Assembly (NCBI GenBank): GCA_905479745.1
Contig: CAJQNO010000099.1
Coordinates: forward strand, 1 to 47,969
Direction of reading: 5' to 3'
From: an uncultured Flavobacteriaceae bacterium
GTDB taxonomy: Bacteria > Bacteroidota > Bacteroidia > Flavobacteriales > Flavobacteriaceae
DNA length: 47,969 bases
The notes under the pieces: generated by a model
Told to the model about the DNA's origin: nothing
Database searches by the model: none
Seen by the model: only the letters and a program-made list of their open reading frames with translations
In this document: piece by piece, positions 14,114 to 22,985 of the stretch
Position numbering within the stretch: the first letter of the stretch is position 1
Layout: every line of letters starts with the position of its first letter
Translations under genes and position numbers: made by a program

Positions 14114-14440
14114 TTATAACATACCTAATTCCAGTTTGGCTTCTTCGCTCATCAGATCCTGACTCCATGGAGGATCGAAGGTGATCTCAACTTCCGCATC
14201 TTTCACCAGCTTTATAGACTTTACCTTGTCTTCCACTTCCATAGGCAGTGATTCTGCTACAGGGCAGTTTGGTGTTGTGAGTGTCATGAGGATCTTTACT
14301 TCCAGGTCTTCATTTACAAACACATCGTAGATCAAACCTAGTTCATAAATATCAACCGGGATCTCCGGGTCGTAGATCGTTTTAAGGACCTTTACAATTT
14401 TCTCACCTAATTCGGTAGTATCAATTTCGGTAGTGCTCAT
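14114..14440 (-). CDS. MIP18/SufT-like iron-sulfur assembly protein (DUF59)
   Basis: The 108-residue single-domain protein has the DUF59 hallmarks: TIYDPEIPVDIYELGLIYDV at ~21-40, with DPE at 24-26, and LTTPNCPVAESLP with the conserved Cys59, followed by FDPPWSQD. Homologues (SufT, PaaD-type, eukaryotic MIP18) help mature Fe-S proteins. Lying 3 nt downstream of sufE and within the suf operon supports that job. Which apo-proteins it serves is not visible. Confidence 0.88.
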   Translation of the reverse strand: MSTTEIDTTELGEKIVKVLKTIYDPEIPVDIYELGLIYDVFVNEDLEVKILMTLTTPNCPVAESLPMEVEDKVKSIKLVKDAEVEITFDPPWSQDLMSEEAKLELGML

Positions 14441-14443
14441 TTT

Positions 14444-14869
14444 TTATTTCTTTAGCTGCGCCTGAAAAGCCACAGCATATAGTTTCATTTGTTTTATCAT
14501 AGACACCAATCCATTCGCACGGGTAGGTGACAGGTGTTCTTTCAGCCCGATCTCATCGATGAAATTTGTATTGGCAGCTGCGATCTCCTCCGGTCTATGA
14601 CCTGAGAACACCCTGATGAGAACAGCAATAATCCCTTTGGTGATAATTGCATCGCTATCGGCGGTAAAGATCACCTTATCCTCTTTTAAGTATGCATCCA
14701 GCCACACCTTACTTTGACAACCTTTAATTAGCTTATCGTCGGTTTTGCGTTGCGGATCTATCAATGGCAGTGTTTTTCCAAGCTGGATAAGATGTTCGTA
14801 TTTATCCATCCAATCTTCAAAAAGTGAGAATTCATCGATCAGTTCTTCTTGTATTGCCGCGATGCTCAT
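14444..14869 (-). CDS. sufE: SufE sulfur acceptor
   Basis: The 141-residue protein accepts persulfide from SufS and passes it to the SufBCD scaffold. The catalytic Cys51 lies in KLIKGCQSKVW, the same position as in E. coli SufE, followed by FSGHRPEEI, also conserved. The gene follows the META lipoprotein by 10 nt and precedes the DUF59 gene by 3 nt in the suf operon. The length is normal. Confidence 0.93.
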   Translation of the reverse strand: MSIAAIQEELIDEFSLFEDWMDKYEHLIQLGKTLPLIDPQRKTDDKLIKGCQSKVWLDAYLKEDKVIFTADSDAIITKGIIAVLIRVFSGHRPEEIAAANTNFIDEIGLKEHLSPTRANGLVSMIKQMKLYAVAFQAQLKK

Positions 14870-14879
14870 ACCAGATATT

Positions 14880-15308
14880 CTATTGAGTTATTTCTTTCTG
14901 TGCTTTTAAAAGTATACTTCGGTCGTTCCTCGAGTATAGCGTGAGGACATTCTCTTCGATAGAATAAGATCCTGTATTTCTCAGGGCTTGTAAGAACAGA
15001 TTCTCATTGGTCATTATGGGTTCATCACAGGCCATTTCGGTAGATCCTATATCAGAAAAAGATAAGGCATACAGATCAAGGGTATAACTTCCGAAAAACG
15101 AATTACATCCTGTATTTCCTTTTACAGTCTTATCGTAAGCCATAAAAGAGATGCTTGGTGGGTTCTGCGAAACCAATTCATCTCCTAGGATGGTTACTGT
15201 ATAGTTACCGGCTAATTGAACATTCCCGGCAGCGTCGATTACTTTTTTTGTTTCATCGCAACTAATAAAAAAAGTAGCAGCGATACAGAGTGAGATTAGT
15301 GTTTTCAT
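14880..15308 (-). CDS. META-domain lipoprotein
   Basis: The 142-residue protein has a lipoprotein signal (FISC, Cys17). A single META domain follows, recognisable from LAGNYTV, PSISFMAYDKTVKGNTGCNSFFGSY and an ending RSILLK. META domains occur in the heat-inducible HslJ and in secreted proteins; their function is poorly known. It sits inside the suf unit between sufS (63 nt upstream) and sufE (10 nt downstream), although its product is probably exported, so any link to Fe-S assembly is only positional. Confidence 0.8.
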   Translation of the reverse strand: MKTLISLCIAATFFISCDETKKVIDAAGNVQLAGNYTVTILGDELVSQNPPSISFMAYDKTVKGNTGCNSFFGSYTLDLYALSFSDIGSTEMACDEPIMTNENLFLQALRNTGSYSIEENVLTLYSRNDRSILLKAQKEITQ

Positions 15309-15371: not shown

Positions 15372-16589
15372 TTAGCTCAACATATTTTGGGCTTGCCTAA
15401 CAGCGTCTACCAACTTATCTACTTCCTCCATGGTATTGTAAAAAGCAAAAGAAGCGCGTACCGTTCCAGGGATCTTATAAAAATCCATGATAGGTTGAGC
15501 ACAATGATGTCCTGTTCTTACAGCGATACCCAGTTTGTCCAGAATAGTCCCTACATCGTAAGGATGTATTCCTTCAAGGTTGAAGGAAATCACTGATGTT
15601 TTGTCTTTTCCCGTTCCATAGATCCGCAGGCCGCGAATTTTCAATAATTCCGCGGTAGCATATTCCAAGAGTTGAGATTCATGCTGAGCGATCGCATCGA
15701 AACCAATTTCGTTTAAATAGTCAATCGCTGTGCCAAAAGCTATTCCACCGGCAATATTGGGAGTTCCGGCTTCAAATTTGTGAGGCAGGTCTGCATAAGT
15801 GGTCTTTTCGAAAGTTACTTCGGCGATCATTTCCCCACCGCCCTGGTAAGGAGGTAATTTATGTAACCACTCCTCTTTACCATACAGCATGCCCACTCCG
15901 GTTGGCCCACACATTTTATGAGCACTGGTAACATAGAAGTCCACATCCAAAGCCTGTAGATCTGGTTTTATATGAGAACAGGACTGCGCGCCATCAACCA
16001 AAACGGCTGCTCCGTAAGTGTGTGCCTTTTCAATTATTTCTTCGATCGGATTGATGGTTCCCAGTGCGTTCGAAATATGGTTCACGAAAACGAGTTTGGT
16101 CTTTTCCGTAAGCAATGTATCATATTCGTCAAGAATAAGTGTTCCTTCTTCGCTCATGGGTATCACTTTCAGCTGAGCACCGGTTTTTTCACAAAGCATC
16201 TGCCAGGGTACAATATTGGAATGATGCTCCATGGCCGACACCAGAACCTCGTTGCCGGTTTTCAGAAAAGATGAAAAACCATTTGCAACCAGGTTGATAC
16301 CATCTGTGGTTCCCGAAGTAAAGATCACTTCATGGTTATGTGCAATATTAAAATGCTTTTGTATTTTTTTTCGGGCCTGTTCGTAGGCGTCGGTGGCTTC
16401 CTGGGAAAGGGTATGAACTCCCCGATGAATATTGGCATTATAGTGAGTGTAATAGTGTGAAATACTATCTATTACTTGTTTCGGTTTTTGGGATGTTGCA
16501 GCATTATCCAGATAAACCAATGGCTTGCCATTCACCTCGCGTTTAAGTATGGGGAAATCTTCTCGTATTTGAGTCACATTTAATGCCAT
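15372..16589 (-). CDS. sufS: SufS cysteine desulfurase
   Basis: The 405-residue PLP enzyme removes sulfur from cysteine to form a protein persulfide and alanine. The PLP lysine is K225 in TSAHKMCGPTGVGMLYGK and the active Cys363 is in RTGHHCAQPIM; EHHSNIVPWQ and LVDGAQSCSH are further family motifs. The RTGHHCAQP form marks it as the SufS (group II) type rather than IscS. It is 21 nt after sufD and is followed by its acceptor gene sufE after one intervening lipoprotein gene. Confidence 0.96.
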   Translation of the reverse strand: MALNVTQIREDFPILKREVNGKPLVYLDNAATSQKPKQVIDSISHYYTHYNANIHRGVHTLSQEATDAYEQARKKIQKHFNIAHNHEVIFTSGTTDGINLVANGFSSFLKTGNEVLVSAMEHHSNIVPWQMLCEKTGAQLKVIPMSEEGTLILDEYDTLLTEKTKLVFVNHISNALGTINPIEEIIEKAHTYGAAVLVDGAQSCSHIKPDLQALDVDFYVTSAHKMCGPTGVGMLYGKEEWLHKLPPYQGGGEMIAEVTFEKTTYADLPHKFEAGTPNIAGGIAFGTAIDYLNEIGFDAIAQHESQLLEYATAELLKIRGLRIYGTGKDKTSVISFNLEGIHPYDVGTILDKLGIAVRTGHHCAQPIMDFYKIPGTVRASFAFYNTMEEVDKLVDAVRQAQNMLS

Positions 16590-16610: not shown

Positions 16611-17924
16611 TTAAAGGTCGAACCCAAGATGAACTCCTATCTTGGTAGCGATCAGTTTATTGATTCGCCTTTTCAGCTCAGGGATCTTTACACTTTCCAG
16701 CACATTGTTCGCGAAAGCATACATAAGCAGCGCTCTGGCCTCCTTTTTCCCTATTCCACGGGAACGAAGATAGAACAAGGCTTCTTCGTCCAGTTGCCCA
16801 ATAGTACATCCATGCGAACATTTTACATCGTCTGCGAAGATCTCCAACTGTGGTTTAGCATTTATCGTAGCCTTGTCGTCTATCAGGATGTTATTATTTT
16901 GCTGAAATGCGTCTGTTTTCTGAGCTTCTCTTTCCACAACCACCTTGCCATTGAATACACCGGTAGACGAGTCTCCGAAAATCCCTTTGTAGTCCTGATG
17001 ACTTTCACAATTGGGTTCGATATGGTTTACCAGGGTATTGTGGTCTACATGTTGCTTACCTTCCAGAATTGTGATTCCTTTTAGGGTAGAATCACATCGT
17101 TCTCCTCTTTGGTAGAAATTAAGGTTGTTTCTTGTCATTTTTCCACCAAATGAAAAGGTATGCACCCTGCAGTTACTTTGTTCTTCCTGTGAAATATAAG
17201 TAGTATCTATCAGGGAAGCGTTCGCCTTGTCATTCTGGATCTTATAGTAATCCACATAGGCACGTTTTTCTGCAAAAATTTCTGTAACCGAATTGGTAAA
17301 AACTGCATTTTCGGAAAGACTTTGGTGCCTTTCAATAATTTGTACGTGAGCATTTTCACCAACAATGATAAGATTACGAGGTTGTAGCATCAGCGCGGCC
17401 TCGTTTCCGGTTGCAAAATTGATCACTTCTATGGGTTTTTCTACTTCCCGGTGCTTCGGAATGTAGATATATGCACCCTCGCGGGCGAAAGCGGTATTGA
17501 GAGATGTAAGGCTGTCTTTCCCGGCAACTTTATTGAAATAAGCCTCTATTACGGGCTTATATTTCGGTTTGCTGAGTGCTGCAGACAACAGGCAAACATC
17601 CATCTTGTCGTGTGTAGTTTCAGAAAGAAAAGAATTATAAACACCGTCAACAAATACAATTTTGTAGGTATCGATATCATGCAGGAAATACTGCTTTACT
17701 TCCTTAAATTCGACGGCGTGGTCCTTCTTAGGTGACAGGCTGTAATCTGTTTTCAACAGGGAATTTAGAGAGGTGTATTTCCAATCCTCCATTTTCTTAG
17801 ACGGGAACCCTTCGTTCTCAAAGATCTTGATAGCCTTGCTCTTTAAGTCGTAAATAGGGGAGTCTGCTTCGAGATGATCTTCGAACGCGATATAAGAGGA
17901 TAATAATTTATTTTTCAAATTCAT
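16611..17924 (-). CDS. sufD: SufD, Fe-S cluster assembly scaffold subunit
   Basis: The 437-residue protein is a subunit of the SufBC2D scaffold, which builds Fe-S clusters with ATP hydrolysis by SufC. The N-terminal helical part has the MEDWKYTSL segment; the parallel beta-helix core follows, and the C-terminal part holds DDVKCSHGCTIGQLDEEALFYLRSRGI with the conserved C and H of the SufB/SufD interface. The gene order sufB-C-D-S matches the usual operon. Spacing is 22 nt to sufC and 21 nt to sufS. Confidence 0.95.
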   Translation of the reverse strand: MNLKNKLLSSYIAFEDHLEADSPIYDLKSKAIKIFENEGFPSKKMEDWKYTSLNSLLKTDYSLSPKKDHAVEFKEVKQYFLHDIDTYKIVFVDGVYNSFLSETTHDKMDVCLLSAALSKPKYKPVIEAYFNKVAGKDSLTSLNTAFAREGAYIYIPKHREVEKPIEVINFATGNEAALMLQPRNLIIVGENAHVQIIERHQSLSENAVFTNSVTEIFAEKRAYVDYYKIQNDKANASLIDTTYISQEEQSNCRVHTFSFGGKMTRNNLNFYQRGERCDSTLKGITILEGKQHVDHNTLVNHIEPNCESHQDYKGIFGDSSTGVFNGKVVVEREAQKTDAFQQNNNILIDDKATINAKPQLEIFADDVKCSHGCTIGQLDEEALFYLRSRGIGKKEARALLMYAFANNVLESVKIPELKRRINKLIATKIGVHLGFDL

Positions 17925-17946: not shown

Positions 17947-18699
17947 TTAGGCCTTAACTTCTTCCTTGATCCAGTCGTATCCTTTTTCTTCCAGTTCGTA
18001 CGCTAGTTCTTTAGGTCCCGATTTTACAATTCGGCCATCCATAAGAACATGCACAAAATCCGGAACTATATAATCCAACAATCGCTGGTAGTGAGTGATC
18101 ACGATCACAGCATTGTCCTTATTGCGCAATTTGTTCACCCCGTTGGCAACCACTTTAAGGGCATCGATATCCAGACCAGAATCTGTCTCGTCCAGGATGG
18201 CTAATTTTGGTTCCATCATTGCCAGCTGGAAGATCTCATTTCTCTTTTTTTCACCTCCCGAAAATCCTTCGTTCAGCGATCTGGATAAAAACTTACGGTC
18301 AATCTCCAGCAGATCTGCTTTTTCCTTGATCTTCTTTAGCATTTCTGAAGCAGGCATATCCTCAAGCCCCTGTGCTTTACGCGATTCGTTGATCGCCGTC
18401 TTGATAAAGTTTGTCACGGTCACCCCGGGAATCTCAACCGGGTACTGAAAGGATAGAAACACCCCTTTATGTGCGCGTTCTTCCGGATCCAGTTCGGTGA
18501 TATCCTCCCCTTCCAGAAGTACGTCTCCCTTGGTGATCTCAAACTCCTCTTTACCAGCTATAACAGAAGCCAGCGTACTTTTACCCGATCCATTGGGACC
18601 CATAATGGCATGTACCTCTCCGGCTTTAACCTCCAGGTTTACCCCGTTCAGGATATTTTTTTCTTCAACACTAGCGTGTAAATTTTTTATCTCTAACAT
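17947..18699 (-). CDS. sufC: SufC, Fe-S assembly ATPase
   Basis: The 250-residue ABC-type ATPase is read from M at 18699 (MLEIKNLHASVEEKN); the frame extends nine codons upstream, but that would overlap the preceding lipoprotein gene. Walker A is GPNGSGKST (34-42), the ABC signature is FSGGEKKRNE and Walker B is LAILDETDSGLD. The SufC-specific DSGLD and VITHYQRLLDYI are clear. It powers cluster assembly on SufB/SufD. It is separated by a single base from the stop of the lipoprotein gene, suggesting coupled translation. Confidence 0.95.
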   Translation of the reverse strand: MLEIKNLHASVEEKNILNGVNLEVKAGEVHAIMGPNGSGKSTLASVIAGKEEFEITKGDVLLEGEDITELDPEERAHKGVFLSFQYPVEIPGVTVTNFIKTAINESRKAQGLEDMPASEMLKKIKEKADLLEIDRKFLSRSLNEGFSGGEKKRNEIFQLAMMEPKLAILDETDSGLDIDALKVVANGVNKLRNKDNAVIVITHYQRLLDYIVPDFVHVLMDGRIVKSGPKELAYELEEKGYDWIKEEVKA

Positions 18700-18700
18700 C

Positions 18701-19132
18701 TTAGTTATTGTCTTCAATTTTAACATCTGCCTCTGCGGGCTTCGCGCTCACATTCAGTATATTTTTTATGGTGATCACTTCCTCCCAGCCTTCTTTACCT
18801 TCAGAAAGGGCAGGATTGGGCGATACTATTCCTGTTACTACCACCGGGACCATATCAAATTCATCCTTTTTGATCGGTGCTACCCTTGCGGCCAATTCAC
18901 GGGCAACAGTATCTATTACCACCCCGTATACAAAGTTCTTACCTTTCAACACGGCTGCTTCATCGGTAAAGATGAACTCACCTCTGTAAACAGGCATTCT
19001 TACATCCACCACACTGCCGCCTTGTGCAGATACTTCGGTGTTCTCATCCGGGTTCTCACTGTTTTTCTTTTCAGAATTATTACAAGAGAATGTAATAGTA
19101 GCGATCAGGAATAAATAAAAGATTTTTTTCAT
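18701..19132 (-). CDS. Uncharacterised lipoprotein inside the suf operon, possible OB-fold
   Basis: The 143-residue product has a lipoprotein signal (ITFSC, Cys17) and an acidic, Asn/Glu-rich linker to ~35. The remaining ~100 residues form one domain beginning PVYRGEFIFTDEAAVLKG, then VTGIVSPNP and WEEVITIKNIL. The pattern of strands and the GEFIFTDEAAV start resemble the OB-fold C-terminal half of NlpE, but this is only my visual comparison. It lies between sufB (15 nt) and sufC (1 nt), so its level is probably tied to theirs. An exported protein in the middle of a cytosolic machinery operon is odd. I do not recognise a named family. Confidence 0.72.
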   Translation of the reverse strand: MKKIFYLFLIATITFSCNNSEKKNSENPDENTEVSAQGGSVVDVRMPVYRGEFIFTDEAAVLKGKNFVYGVVIDTVARELAARVAPIKKDEFDMVPVVVTGIVSPNPALSEGKEGWEEVITIKNILNVSAKPAEADVKIEDNN

Positions 19133-19147
19133 TGTTATTTTTTAGTT

Positions 19148-20596
19148 TTATCCAACTGAACCTTCAAGGCTTATTTCTAATAATTTTTGTGCTTCTACAG
19201 CAAATTCCATAGGAAGTTTATTTAGAACCTCCTTGCTAAATCCATTTACTATAAGAGCAATCGCTTTTTCGGTATCGATTCCGCGCTGATTGCAATAAAA
19301 GATCTGGTCTTCCCCGATCTTACTAGTTGTGGCTTCGTGTTCTATCCTTGCAGATTTATTACTGGCCTCTATATATGGAAAAGTATGAGCACCGCAATTA
19401 TTTCCCATTAATAAGGAATCGCACTGTGAGAAGTTGCGGGCATTGTCGGCTCTCGGACTAATCTTCACAAGGCCTCTATAGCTATTTTGTGATTTTCCTG
19501 CTGAAATACCTTTTGATATAATTGTACTTCTGGTGTTCTTGCCCAGGTGAATCATTTTGGTTCCTGTATCGGCCTGCTGGTAATTATTGGTCACCGCGAT
19601 CGAGTAGAATTCTCCAATTGAATTATCACCTTTTAATATGCAACTTGGATATTTCCAGGTAACGGCACTACCAGTTTCAACCTGAGTCCAGGATATTTTC
19701 GCATTTTTTTCGCAAAGGCCCCGTTTGGTCACAAAGTTGTACACCCCTCCTTTACCGTCTTTACCACCAGGGTACCAGTTTTGAACCGTAGAATATTTTA
19801 TTTCGGCATCGTCCAGGGCTATTAGTTCCACCACTGCGGCATGCAACTGGTTTTCATCTCTGGACGGAGCTGTACACCCTTCCAGATAACTTACATAACT
19901 TCCTTCGTCTGCAATTACAAGGGTGCGTTCAAACTGTCCTGTTCCCGCCTGGTTGATACGGAAGTAGGTAGATAATTCCATAGGGCAGCGAACGCCCTTC
20001 GGAATATAGCAGAAAGAGCCATCACTAAAAACAGCGCTGTTCAATGCTGCATAAAAGTTATCTTTTTGCGGAACTACAGAGCCTATGTATTTTTTTACCA
20101 GTTCGGGGTGTTCTTTAATTGCTTCTGAAATTGAGCAAAAGATAATGCCCTTTTCGGCCAGGGTTGCTTTAAAGGTAGTCGCCACCGAAACGGAATCCAT
20201 CACGATATCCACCGCCACCCCGGCTAATTTTTTTTGCTCCTCCAGGGATATGCCCAGCCTGTTGAAGGTGTCAAGCAATTCCGGGTCTACCTCATCGATG
20301 CTATCGTATTTCGGTTTCTTTGAGGGTGCCGAATAATATGAAATGGCCTGGAAATCGGGTTTTTCGTAGCGTACATTGGCCCACTCCGGCTCGACCATTT
20401 CCTTCCACAAGCGGAAAGACTCCAATCTCCAATCGGTCATCCATTGTGGTTCTTCCTTTTTTAGGGAAATCGCTCTAACGATATCTTCATTAAGGCCGGC
20501 AGGAAATGTCTCTGAAGCAATATCGGTGTAGAAACCATACTCGTATTCCTTGGTTTCCAGTTCTTTCTTTAAATCGTCTTCGGTAAATTTTCCCAT
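19148..20596 (-). CDS. sufB: SufB, Fe-S cluster assembly scaffold subunit
   Basis: The 482-residue protein is read from M at 20596 ([18 protein letters not shown]); the frame continues 31 codons upstream but would overlap sufA, and the shorter form matches the usual family length. The family blocks [54 protein letters not shown] and [18 protein letters not shown] are all present. SufB carries the nascent cluster in the SufBC2D complex; the Cys of NFVTKRGLC is in the position of the functionally important E. coli SufB Cys. It follows sufA by 19 nt. Confidence 0.96.
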
Positions 20597-20615
20597 GATT
20601 CTTTTTCTGCAATAA

Positions 20616-20945
20616 TTATAAAGAGAAACTCTCTCCGCATCCGCAAGTTCTGTTCGCATTTGGATTGTTAAAGACAAATCCCTTTCCATTTAGGCCTCCA
20701 CTGTATTCGAGGGTGGTTCCTACCAGGTAGAGAAAGCTCTTCTTATCCACTACGATCTTTACGGGTGTATCTTCGAACATCTTATCCTCATCTCCTAATT
20801 GTTTATCGAAAGTTAGCTCATAAGACAGGCCCGAACATCCTCCGCTCTTTACTCCAACACGCACAAAATCCTGCTCAACAGCAAAGCCTTCGTCTGTCAT
20901 CAGCTCGGAAATTTTGCTTTTTGCTTGTTCGCTTACTTTGATCAT
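20616..20945 (-). CDS. sufA: SufA/HesB-family A-type Fe-S carrier
   Basis: The 109-residue protein starts at M 20945 ([15 protein letters not shown]); the upstream extension to 20978 would run into the predicted -7 box. The three cluster-binding cysteines are C37 (SGGCSGLSY) and C101/C103 ([11 protein letters not shown]). A-type carriers move clusters from SufBCD to client proteins. It is the first gene of the suf operon and lies behind the promoter element at 20976-20983. Confidence 0.94.
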
Positions 20946-20975
20946 CTCTAAATAGATTAATTCTAAATTAGGTTG

Positions 20976-20983
20976 CAAATATA
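20976..20983 (-). promoter_or_regulatory. -7 element of the suf operon
   Basis: TATATTTG on the minus strand is an exact match to TAnnTTTG, 30 nt upstream of the sufA ATG. The -33 region reads GGTT at about 17 nt, which is weak. I saw no IscR- or SufR-type operator I could defend. Confidence 0.42.
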
Positions 20984-21101: not shown

Positions 21102-22178
21102 TTAGTTTGGATCCTGGAAATCGGGATTAGAAATAAAGCTGGGATCGGATAAGGTTAGTAGAAAGGCTTTTAAATCGGCCTTATCTTCAGGTGTGAGACC
21201 CACACCTCCTTCGTCTACTTTTTTCATCAGGGGATCTATTGTTTCAGAATAAACCAGCCCTTCACTATAATGGTCGATCACCTCATCAATGGTGTTAAAT
21301 CTACCATCGTGCATATAGGGTGCGGTGTAAGCAAGATTTCTCAGGCTTGGAGTTTTAAAGGTGCCAAATTCTCTAGGATCTCCGGTTACGGCACCACGAC
21401 CACGATCTATATGTGTTTCATCCAGACCGTTGTTATGGAAGATATTATCTGTCCACAGGGGGTTATTAGGATTTCCGTGACAGTGAAAACAATCGCCCCT
21501 ATTCTCATCCAGGAAAACATTTAGTCCGTTTAGTTCAGACTGGGTTAATTGTTCAGTGCCGGCCAGGTACCTATCAAACTTAGAATTTCCCGAAATAAGT
21601 GTTCTAACAAACTGTGCGATCGCTTTGGTTACCAGAGTTGAGTCTATGTTTTGGGTTCCGAAAGCAGCTTCGAACAAGGCAGGATATTCGGGGTCTGCCT
21701 GTAAAGTATTTACAGCCTCAGGCCAGGTATTGTGCATTTCGATAGGATCGATAACAGGAAATAAAGCCTGGTTTTCAATCGATGCTGCGCGACCATCCCA
21801 GAAGAAAAGTTCGTTATAGTTCCAGGCCAGGTTGAATAAAGGCATGGAATTTCTCGTGCCTGCCGTACCATCTATACCCACGCTAAATTGCCGGGGGTCT
21901 GAGAAAGCACTAGCCGGGCTGTGACACCCAGCACAGGCTAAGGTATTATCTGCAGATAGCTTTTTATCGAAGAATAACTTTCTTCCCAAGGTCACGCCTT
22001 CAACAGATTGCGGATTGTCTTCCGGTATTACCGGTGGAAGGATCTTTTCGGCAAATAGAGGTGGAATATTTAATTCCAGGGGGGTAGCCGTATACCCGTC
22101 TGTATTGTCATCCTGATCGGTAGTACACGAAACTACCAGGAGACAACATAGTGCGATATAAGCTAAACTGCGTTTCAT
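21102..22178 (-). CDS. Di-haem cytochrome c peroxidase / MbnH-MauG family lipoprotein
   Basis: The 358-residue protein has a lipobox (VVSC, Cys18) and two c-type haem sites: CAGCH at 82-86 and CFHCH at 230-234. Other family motifs are GRKLFFDKKLS, RNSMPLFNLAW, FFWDGRAASIENQA and FKTPSLRN...TAPYMHDGRF, in which M289 or H290 is placed to act as axial ligand. The family reduces H2O2 or, in MauG and MbnH, uses high-valent haem to oxidise a partner protein. It is 9 nt after the MbnP gene, the arrangement in which MbnH oxidises a Trp of MbnP, so the protein-modifying role is likely. It is the last gene of the surface redox unit, lipid-anchored, and periplasmic or surface. Confidence 0.9.
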   Translation of the reverse strand: MKRSLAYIALCCLLVVSCTTDQDDNTDGYTATPLELNIPPLFAEKILPPVIPEDNPQSVEGVTLGRKLFFDKKLSADNTLACAGCHSPASAFSDPRQFSVGIDGTAGTRNSMPLFNLAWNYNELFFWDGRAASIENQALFPVIDPIEMHNTWPEAVNTLQADPEYPALFEAAFGTQNIDSTLVTKAIAQFVRTLISGNSKFDRYLAGTEQLTQSELNGLNVFLDENRGDCFHCHGNPNNPLWTDNIFHNNGLDETHIDRGRGAVTGDPREFGTFKTPSLRNLAYTAPYMHDGRFNTIDEVIDHYSEGLVYSETIDPLMKKVDEGGVGLTPEDKADLKAFLLTLSDPSFISNPDFQDPN

Positions 22179-22187
22179 ATTATTTGT

Positions 22188-22985
22188 TTACTGTGTTACG
22201 GTTCCTTTGCTGAATACTCCGGTAGAACCATTAAAGGTAGAACCATTTTCGTACATCATGATCTGGGCATCGAAATTTGGCATTAAAACTGTGTTTAATT
22301 GGTTGAGATCCCATTGATTCGGACTTCTAAACCATTCTGCCACATTCATCTTTACCTCTACACTTGTACTACTTCCAACGGTTACTTGACCCAGGCTTAC
22401 TTCGAAAGAAGTATCCTGAAGGGTAATGGGAGTGGTAGTATTGTCGTTCGCGCGAATAGTGTGGTAGGCATAATTTGCCTGTGCAGAGGTATTGTCTACA
22501 AATTTACCTTCAAGTCGCATATAGTGATATCCACCTCCCAACGCCATTGGAACATTCCAACCTCCGTCTGCCGAATTCAAATCAGGATAAATACCATCCT
22601 GGTTGTCTTCATCATCAAATCCAAAAGTGAAGGTAACGAGATATTCACCTTCCGGGATCTCAATATCGGGTGTAAAGGTTAGATTAGTTCCTTCACGAAC
22701 ATTTATCAGGTTATAATCTCCTGCATCGTAAGACACGGCGGTAGAAAGATTAGTAAAGGTGACATCGGAAATTAGATAAACCAACTTCGAAATGCTCATC
22801 TGCTCTCCATTGGCGTTAAAATACTGCAATAGGTCGAAGTCTGAATTTTCAATAACATCGCCATCCCAGTTGTGAGTAAATGTAAATTCAACCGTAGCGT
22901 TTGGTGTAGGTTGTGGGTTGTTATCATCATTGTTGCATCCGAAAACCAGAACGGAAGCTACAATCATTAGGACAATTTTTTTCAT
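22188..22985 (-). CDS. MbnP-family (copper-binding type) lipoprotein
   Basis: The 265-residue protein has a lipobox (VFGC, Cys17) then one beta-rich domain. The recognisable pattern of MbnP-like proteins is VEFTFTHNWDG, ISKLVYLISDVTF, FGFDDEDNQDG, WNVPMALGGGYHYMRLEGKF and YAYHTI. Candidate functional residues are W143, H154, H175, W218 and W225. In Methylosinus MbnP the partner di-haem enzyme MbnH converts a Trp to kynurenine and the protein binds copper. Here the partner gene is adjacent (9 nt). No methanobactin genes (mbnA, B, C) are in the window, so this is the more widespread MbnP-peroxidase pair and not a methanobactin locus. Copper binding is inferred from the family. Confidence 0.82.
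   Translation of the reverse strand: MKKIVLMIVASVLVFGCNNDDNNPQPTPNATVEFTFTHNWDGDVIENSDFDLLQYFNANGEQMSISKLVYLISDVTFTNLSTAVSYDAGDYNLINVREGTNLTFTPDIEIPEGEYLVTFTFGFDDEDNQDGIYPDLNSADGGWNVPMALGGGYHYMRLEGKFVDNTSAQANYAYHTIRANDNTTTPITLQDTSFEVSLGQVTVGSSTSVEVKMNVAEWFRSPNQWDLNQLNTVLMPNFDAQIMMYENGSTFNGSTGVFSKGTVTQ

Follow-up and report, generated by a model that had tools for sequence, protein, structure and literature searches.

The window analyzed here is a stretch of 47,969 nucleotides (nt) from an uncultured Flavobacteriaceae bacterium (assembly GCA_905479745.1, contig CAJQNO010000099.1, positions 1 to 47,969 of the forward strand). Its minus strand carries a suf operon for iron-sulfur (Fe-S) cluster assembly, and within this operon a gene for a lipoprotein of 143 amino acids, here called LP, is placed between sufB and sufC. 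Suf proteins act in the cytosol, with SufC as the ATPase partner of SufB, and an exported gene product encoded between the two in roughly every second Flavobacteriaceae genome sampled is odd for this reason. The LP gene starts 15 nt downstream of the sufB stop (19148), and a single base separates its stop from the sufC ATG, which ends at 18699; coordinates and spacings agree exactly with a preliminary description of this DNA. The operon genes were named from NCBIfam and Pfam matches. SufB (PRK11814, 2.5e-274; TIGR01980, 1.7e-192) and SufC (TIGR01978, 2.4e-111) are clearly identified, and SufD, SufS, the DUF59 protein and the SufA/ErpA-type carrier each pass one or more curated cut-offs. As a unit, the LP family is not named by any Pfam or NCBIfam model in scans of the window protein and its homologues, and a literature search covering part of the open-licence papers found no paper on this lipoprotein.

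The position of LP is fixed across its family. A first genome search matched LP in 18 of 40 genomes, the window's own included, at E ≤ 1e-3. One of these matches, L018, was rejected, as it aligns only at the lipoprotein start and belongs to a longer, different protein; in all 17 remaining loci, window included, LP has sufB on one side and sufC on the other. When 397 sampled Flavobacteriaceae genomes were searched with a profile, 279 gave matches at E ≤ 1e-3, and these divide, as read by eye from the match table, into about 206 with strong matches (E ≤ 2.5e-15) and 73 with weak ones (best E 1.6e-6 to 1e-3). The 73 were left out of the LP count and taken as a group to be probable signal-peptide matches like L018. 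The suf locus was surveyed with six LP queries in 67 of them, and none had LP in the slot, with sufB out of view in L284. Across the order, 10 of 296 sampled genomes matched at 1e-5, all from the window's own family; nine, including the window, carry the gene between sufB and sufC, and the tenth, L108, is not LP. A scan of named genomes and metagenome-assembled genomes gave 109 relatives, with Winogradskyella, Bizionia, Psychroserpens, Lacinutrix, Mangrovimonas, Xanthomarina, Formosa and others among the genera, and the best 80 of the 109 were retained. In all 80 loci LP shares its strand with sufB and sufC and lies between them. A laxer filter put 79 of the 80 in this order; we attribute the exception, and an artefactual negative sufB-LP gap, to a truncated SufB in L073, where the order does hold. 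Altogether, the context was checked in 106 loci, 100 of them distinct, and every distinct one has this order. The preliminary description had proposed looking for the gene at the same place in other Flavobacteriaceae, and it is indeed present in their orthologous suf operons. The median gap is 32 nt between sufB and LP (78 loci) and 4 nt between LP and sufC (80 loci), so that LP sits closer to sufC; some loci also hold a metallo-β-lactamase (MBL) gene, which widens one gap. By place, strand and tight spacing, LP is thus a member of the suf operon in 17/17 and 80/80 loci. Plasmid and phage collections gave no LP matches.

Selection on the gene is strong. Compared with two relatives from the same genus, the ratio of nonsynonymous to synonymous substitution (dN/dS) of the whole LP gene is 0.054 and 0.088, and dN in the part encoding the domain is 0.004 and 0.013. 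Because of the low dN/dS, we regard LP as a real gene under strong purifying selection and not a chance open reading frame (ORF). The SufB dN values of 2-3 in four pairs are artefactual; SufB was left out of this comparison.

The N-terminus of LP consists of a positive start, a hydrophobic stretch and Cys17, the predicted lipid-bearing residue. A lipobox pattern is matched by 76 of the 79 aligned homologues, in keeping with the lipoprotein identity proposed before; L033 and L041, for which a wrong start had been chosen, are excluded from the alignment. A lysine directly follows the lipid-bearing cysteine in 78 of 79 members. Residues 18-40 form a low-confidence linker in the AlphaFold2 model and are probably disordered. 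The remainder is predicted as an oligonucleotide/oligosaccharide-binding (OB) fold, with ten-residue means of the predicted local distance difference test (pLDDT) of 79 for residues 41-50 and 94-98 for residues 51-130. The closest solved structure to this model is the C-terminal domain of E. coli NlpE (PDB: 2z4i), with a Z-score of 10.1, a root-mean-square deviation (rmsd) of 2.2 Å over 79 residues and 14% identity; the next unrelated chain scores 6.9. A second AlphaFold2 model, of the domain only and led by another homologue (L054), again places 2z4i on top (Z 10.1, rmsd 3.5 Å over 83 residues, next unrelated chain 7.4). Foldseek alone is weaker, returning nothing under 1e-3 and ranking 2z4i second and eighth for the two models.

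Profiles point in the same direction. The NlpE_C model (PF17185) is matched by 49 of 79 LP members at E ≤ 2e-4 (best 5.4e-9) and by 76 at E ≤ 1, and the NlpE model PRK10523 by 74 at E ≤ 1 (best 2.1e-6). The window protein alone matches no Pfam domain, PF17185 included; it is too divergent for the profile and joins the family via its homologues. Profile-profile comparison with two four-sequence NlpE_C sets gave weak probabilities of 39% and 52%. One sequence search of the PDB returned nothing, and another gave four weak matches with no OB-fold NlpE relative among them. Taken together, the profile and structural matches support a kinship of the LP family with NlpE_C and an OB fold like that of the NlpE C-domain. 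The fold had already been suspected in the preliminary description, and the profile match is to NlpE_C rather than to an unrelated family.

Table 1 LP and the surrounding suf operon in the window.
Feature	Position	Strand	Basis or remark
LP, NlpE_C-like OB-fold family lipoprotein, 143 aa	18701..19132	-	ATG start; stop 18701-18703
Lipoprotein signal peptide and predicted lipid-bearing Cys17	19082..19132	-	sequence; lipobox pattern; Cys codon 19082-19084
Predicted OB-fold domain, residues 45-130	18743..19000	-	AlphaFold2 pLDDT; structural match to NlpE C-domain
LP-sufC spacer, single base	18700..18700	-	LP stop to sufC start
sufB	19148..20689	-	profile matches; start probably internal, match from residue 38 on
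sufC	17947..18699	-	TIGR01978
sufD	16611..17924	-	curated model above cut-off
sufS, cysteine desulfurase	15372..16589	-	curated model above cut-off
META (HslJ-type) domain lipoprotein, between sufS and sufE	14880..15308	-	PF03724 3.4e-24; lipoprotein by eye
sufE	14444..14869	-	PRK09296 4e-29, under curated cut-off
SUF-associated DUF59 protein	14114..14440	-	TIGR02945
SufA/ErpA-type Fe-S carrier	20616..20978	-	TIGR00049

LP shares with E. coli NlpE the OB fold of the C-terminal domain (PF17185; PDB: 2z4h, 2z4i), the lipid anchor and the profile matches. It differs in lacking the N-terminal domain and the domain disulfide and in being encoded in a suf operon. The N-terminal domain model PF04170 finds no match in LP or, at E ≤ 0.1, anywhere in the genome; a search of the genome with PF17185 also returned nothing, a weak test since this profile misses the window LP itself. 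Not one of the 79 LP members has a cysteine after the lipid-bearing one (L088 has an extra cysteine in the signal peptide only). In the 96% complete draft genome, the best CpxA_peri match reaches 12.9 bits against a cut-off of 23.5. E. coli NlpE is reported to detect failed disulfide formation through its C-domain disulfide and lipoprotein traffic through its N-domain (PMC6593411). Without domain cysteines, LP cannot sense by disulfide in the same way, and we reject its reading as a disulfide redox sensor; an E. coli-type Cpx pathway in this organism is likewise not supported by the draft genome. The earlier suggestion that the protein reports redox stress therefore finds no support for a sensor of the disulfide or Cpx type. 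Given the missing N-terminal domain, the absent domain cysteines and the lack of a CpxA sensor domain above cut-off, we classify LP as an NlpE_C-type lipoprotein and not an NlpE ortholog. KPN03535 of Klebsiella is comparable in that it is described as a single OB-fold lipoprotein, itself likened to NlpE (PMC2954213), and differs in its reported neighbour, a CpxP-like gene instead of suf.

The sufB-sufC junction has other occupants. We surveyed 99 loci without LP, 92 from Flavobacteriaceae and seven from other families of the order. The gap between sufB and sufC is below 200 nt in 68 of them, an MBL lipoprotein fills it in 18, another gap of at least 200 nt is present in 11, and sufB is out of view in two. 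As the loci were partly picked from genomes known to carry MBL, 18 of 99 is not a frequency. Of the 11 other wide gaps, two (L263, L293) contain no ORF of 60 amino acids; the nine remaining ones hold an FMN reductase (L238, L264), a 23S rRNA-IVP protein (L227, L280, L292), a PDDEXK_3 protein (L152, outside Flavobacteriaceae), a prolyl-oligopeptidase-like protein (L277), an unnamed protein (L251) or, in L142 (1093-1476, on the sufC strand), a different lipoprotein of 127 amino acids, which hhalign matches to LP only weakly, at 17%. The FMN reductases are NADPH-dependent (PF03358) and come from two genomes of one genus; a flavin reductase at this junction could feed SufBCD or ferric reduction.

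Of 199 sampled Flavobacteriaceae genomes, 19 encode the MBL lipoprotein; in 18 of these its gene lies between sufB and sufC, and seven of the 18 also carry LP. The MBL lipoprotein is also present in six of the 80 LP loci described above. Its best named matches are models of the N-acylhomoserine lactone (AHL) lactonase type, below cut-off (gene loci: L126, L134, L140, L204-L207 and L209-L222). In Muricauda olearia, the AHL lactonase gene momL is reported to lie between sufB and sufC, an arrangement its authors deem unique, and its co-transcription with suf was concluded from matched transcript levels (PMC5484670). According to the same report, momL rose, when indole was added, nearly 7-fold under iron chelation with 2,2'-dipyridyl and 3-4-fold under H2O2, alongside suf genes, and the chelator alone raised sufA and sufD about 2-fold. 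From position and below-cut-off profile matches, and not from comparison with the MomL sequence, we infer that the MBL inserts are momL orthologues. MomL is, like LP, an exported protein whose gene occupies this junction in a member of the family; the two differ in kind, MomL being an AHL lactonase and LP a small OB domain. The sufB-sufC slot appears to host exported proteins repeatedly, beyond the one case of momL in print. For Riemerella anatipestifer, an nlpE-annotated gene, RAYM_06482, is reported whose locus tag falls between the tags of sufB and sufD and which is listed with suf genes as rising with iron (PMC5609570). No such nlpE beside suf was seen in 30 NlpE N-domain loci of roughly 3 kb each, nor in eight larger regions, five of them from a single family, where the only SufC matches are ABC ATPases of 25-30% identity.

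We propose, with a probability of about 45%, that LP serves the envelope under stress: as a lipoprotein translated from the suf message, and perhaps coupled in translation to sufC, it would use its OB domain as a binding module. If the gene rides on this message, LP would be made whenever the cell raises Fe-S cluster assembly, for example under iron shortage or peroxide; co-induction of this kind is in print for momL only, in another genus. Because translation of LP would end a few bases before the sufC start, the two are probably translationally coupled. Anchored in an envelope membrane, possibly on the periplasmic side, the OB domain would most likely bind a protein or a small ligand, thereby protecting or monitoring the envelope in the same stress. 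In favour of this proposal are the constant place of LP, its shorter gap to sufC, the strong selection, the profile and structural matches to NlpE_C, the behaviour reported for momL and, for the periplasmic side, the lack of the surface-export motif C-X-K-(D/E)2 in all 79 LP members. The coupling to Fe-S status put forward in the preliminary description is plausible in this sense, that is, through co-expression alone and by analogy with momL (PMC5484670). Alongside the published momL case, LP suggests that these bacteria may use the suf message to bring proteins to the envelope or out of the cell during iron and oxidative stress.

Several observations weigh against this proposal. Gene order in a core operon stays conserved with or without a functional link between the genes. 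Flavobacteriaceae also manage without LP, since 62 of the 92 LP-less loci from this family have sufB within 200 nt of sufC. Inserts such as the FMN reductase and the 23S rRNA-IVP protein have no envelope role and so suggest tolerance of the junction rather than purpose. Finally, the periplasmic side is weakly supported, because the surface-export motif is that of Capnocytophaga and Flavobacterium johnsoniae has a different one (PMC5080379).

These observations lead to the strongest competing explanation, in which the junction in Flavobacteriales merely tolerates inserts and offers steady, stress-raised expression, so that LP and momL would reside there for dosage, the role of LP being unrelated to Fe-S clusters or the same stress. 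We consider this possible, if less probable than the stress-linked role. The 18 LP-less loci with an MBL lipoprotein and the nine with another ORF in the junction are in its favour. So are four of 15 genomes from other families of the order, two with a GNAT acetyltransferase at the junction (one by scan, one by resemblance) and two with a PDDEXK_3 gene; of the other 11, nine have no insert ORF and in two sufB is not beside sufC, and no lipoprotein of the LP kind was seen in any of the 15. Parsimony on a SufB tree of 203 rows requires 15 state changes for LP and 24 for MBL, which is likewise in its favour; the tree is poorly resolved, with 81 of 197 inner branches open, and these counts cannot separate gain from loss. 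A mere passenger is harder to reconcile with the constant position of LP in all 100 distinct loci and with the strong selection on it, and both of the most frequently recurring inserts in Flavobacteriaceae, LP and MBL, encode lipoproteins.

A bolder version of the stress-linked role would have the junction reserved for exported stress proteins as cargo, be it the NlpE-type OB lipoprotein, the lactonase-like lipoprotein or both. LP would then be an NlpE counterpart without cysteines, linking surveillance of the envelope to the demand for Fe-S clusters by way of its translational coupling to sufC and a partner other than CpxA. We hold this to be speculative and unlikely. Comparably improbable, or slightly more so, is a traffic sensor after the manner of NlpE, in which newly made LP, stuck in the inner membrane when copper or peroxide blocks lipidation, would contact a histidine kinase and report the damage, with suf supplying fresh LP. 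NlpE is reported to sense traffic only while newly made (PMC6593411), and LP has the fold of its C-domain and sits in a stress-linked operon. Yet E. coli uses for this task the very N-terminal domain that LP lacks, the C-domain disulfide is missing throughout the family, and the draft genome offers neither a CpxA_peri match above cut-off nor a PF04170 match (nor one to PF17185, with the limit given above). That LP binds periplasmic iron or copper for the suf pathway is very doubtful: the operon is iron-linked and copper-related genes of the MbnP and MauG/MbnH types lie just upstream, but the domain has no cysteine, and its listed invariant and nearly invariant residues include neither histidine nor methionine.

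The modules of LP and of its operon also occur in other settings. PF17185 is present in 12 of 247 sampled Bacteroidia genomes, and none of 15 fetched PF17185 loci from this class contains suf genes. The domain can be the sole one of a short protein (L112, L113), follow the NlpE N-domain (L111, L118) or precede a stretch without a Pfam name (L114, L115). The stand-alone proteins L112 and L113, from another Bacteroidia family, resemble LP in having one NlpE_C domain (PF17185, 5.2e-10 and 8.9e-10) and a lipoprotein-like start, judged by eye; unlike LP, their domain carries cysteines, and no suf gene was found within about 1.5 kb on each side. The META gene of the window operon keeps its place between sufS and sufE in 36 of 56 homologous loci with both genes in view. 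The NlpE N-domain is fused to META in L153, L170 and L172, and no direct fusion of NlpE_C with META was seen in these loci. Since the window operon encodes NlpE_C-type and META modules separately and fusions of the NlpE N-domain with META occur elsewhere, there is a hint that the two modules work in one setting.

Directly adjoining the suf operon on its upstream side are two further genes on the minus strand. The first (21102-22178) encodes a di-haem enzyme of the MauG/MbnH type (PF03150; TIGR04039 below cut-off) and the second (22188-22985) an MbnP-family protein (PF20243, 5e-27). They form an MbnP-MbnH copper-type pair, and both products have lipoprotein-like starts by eye.
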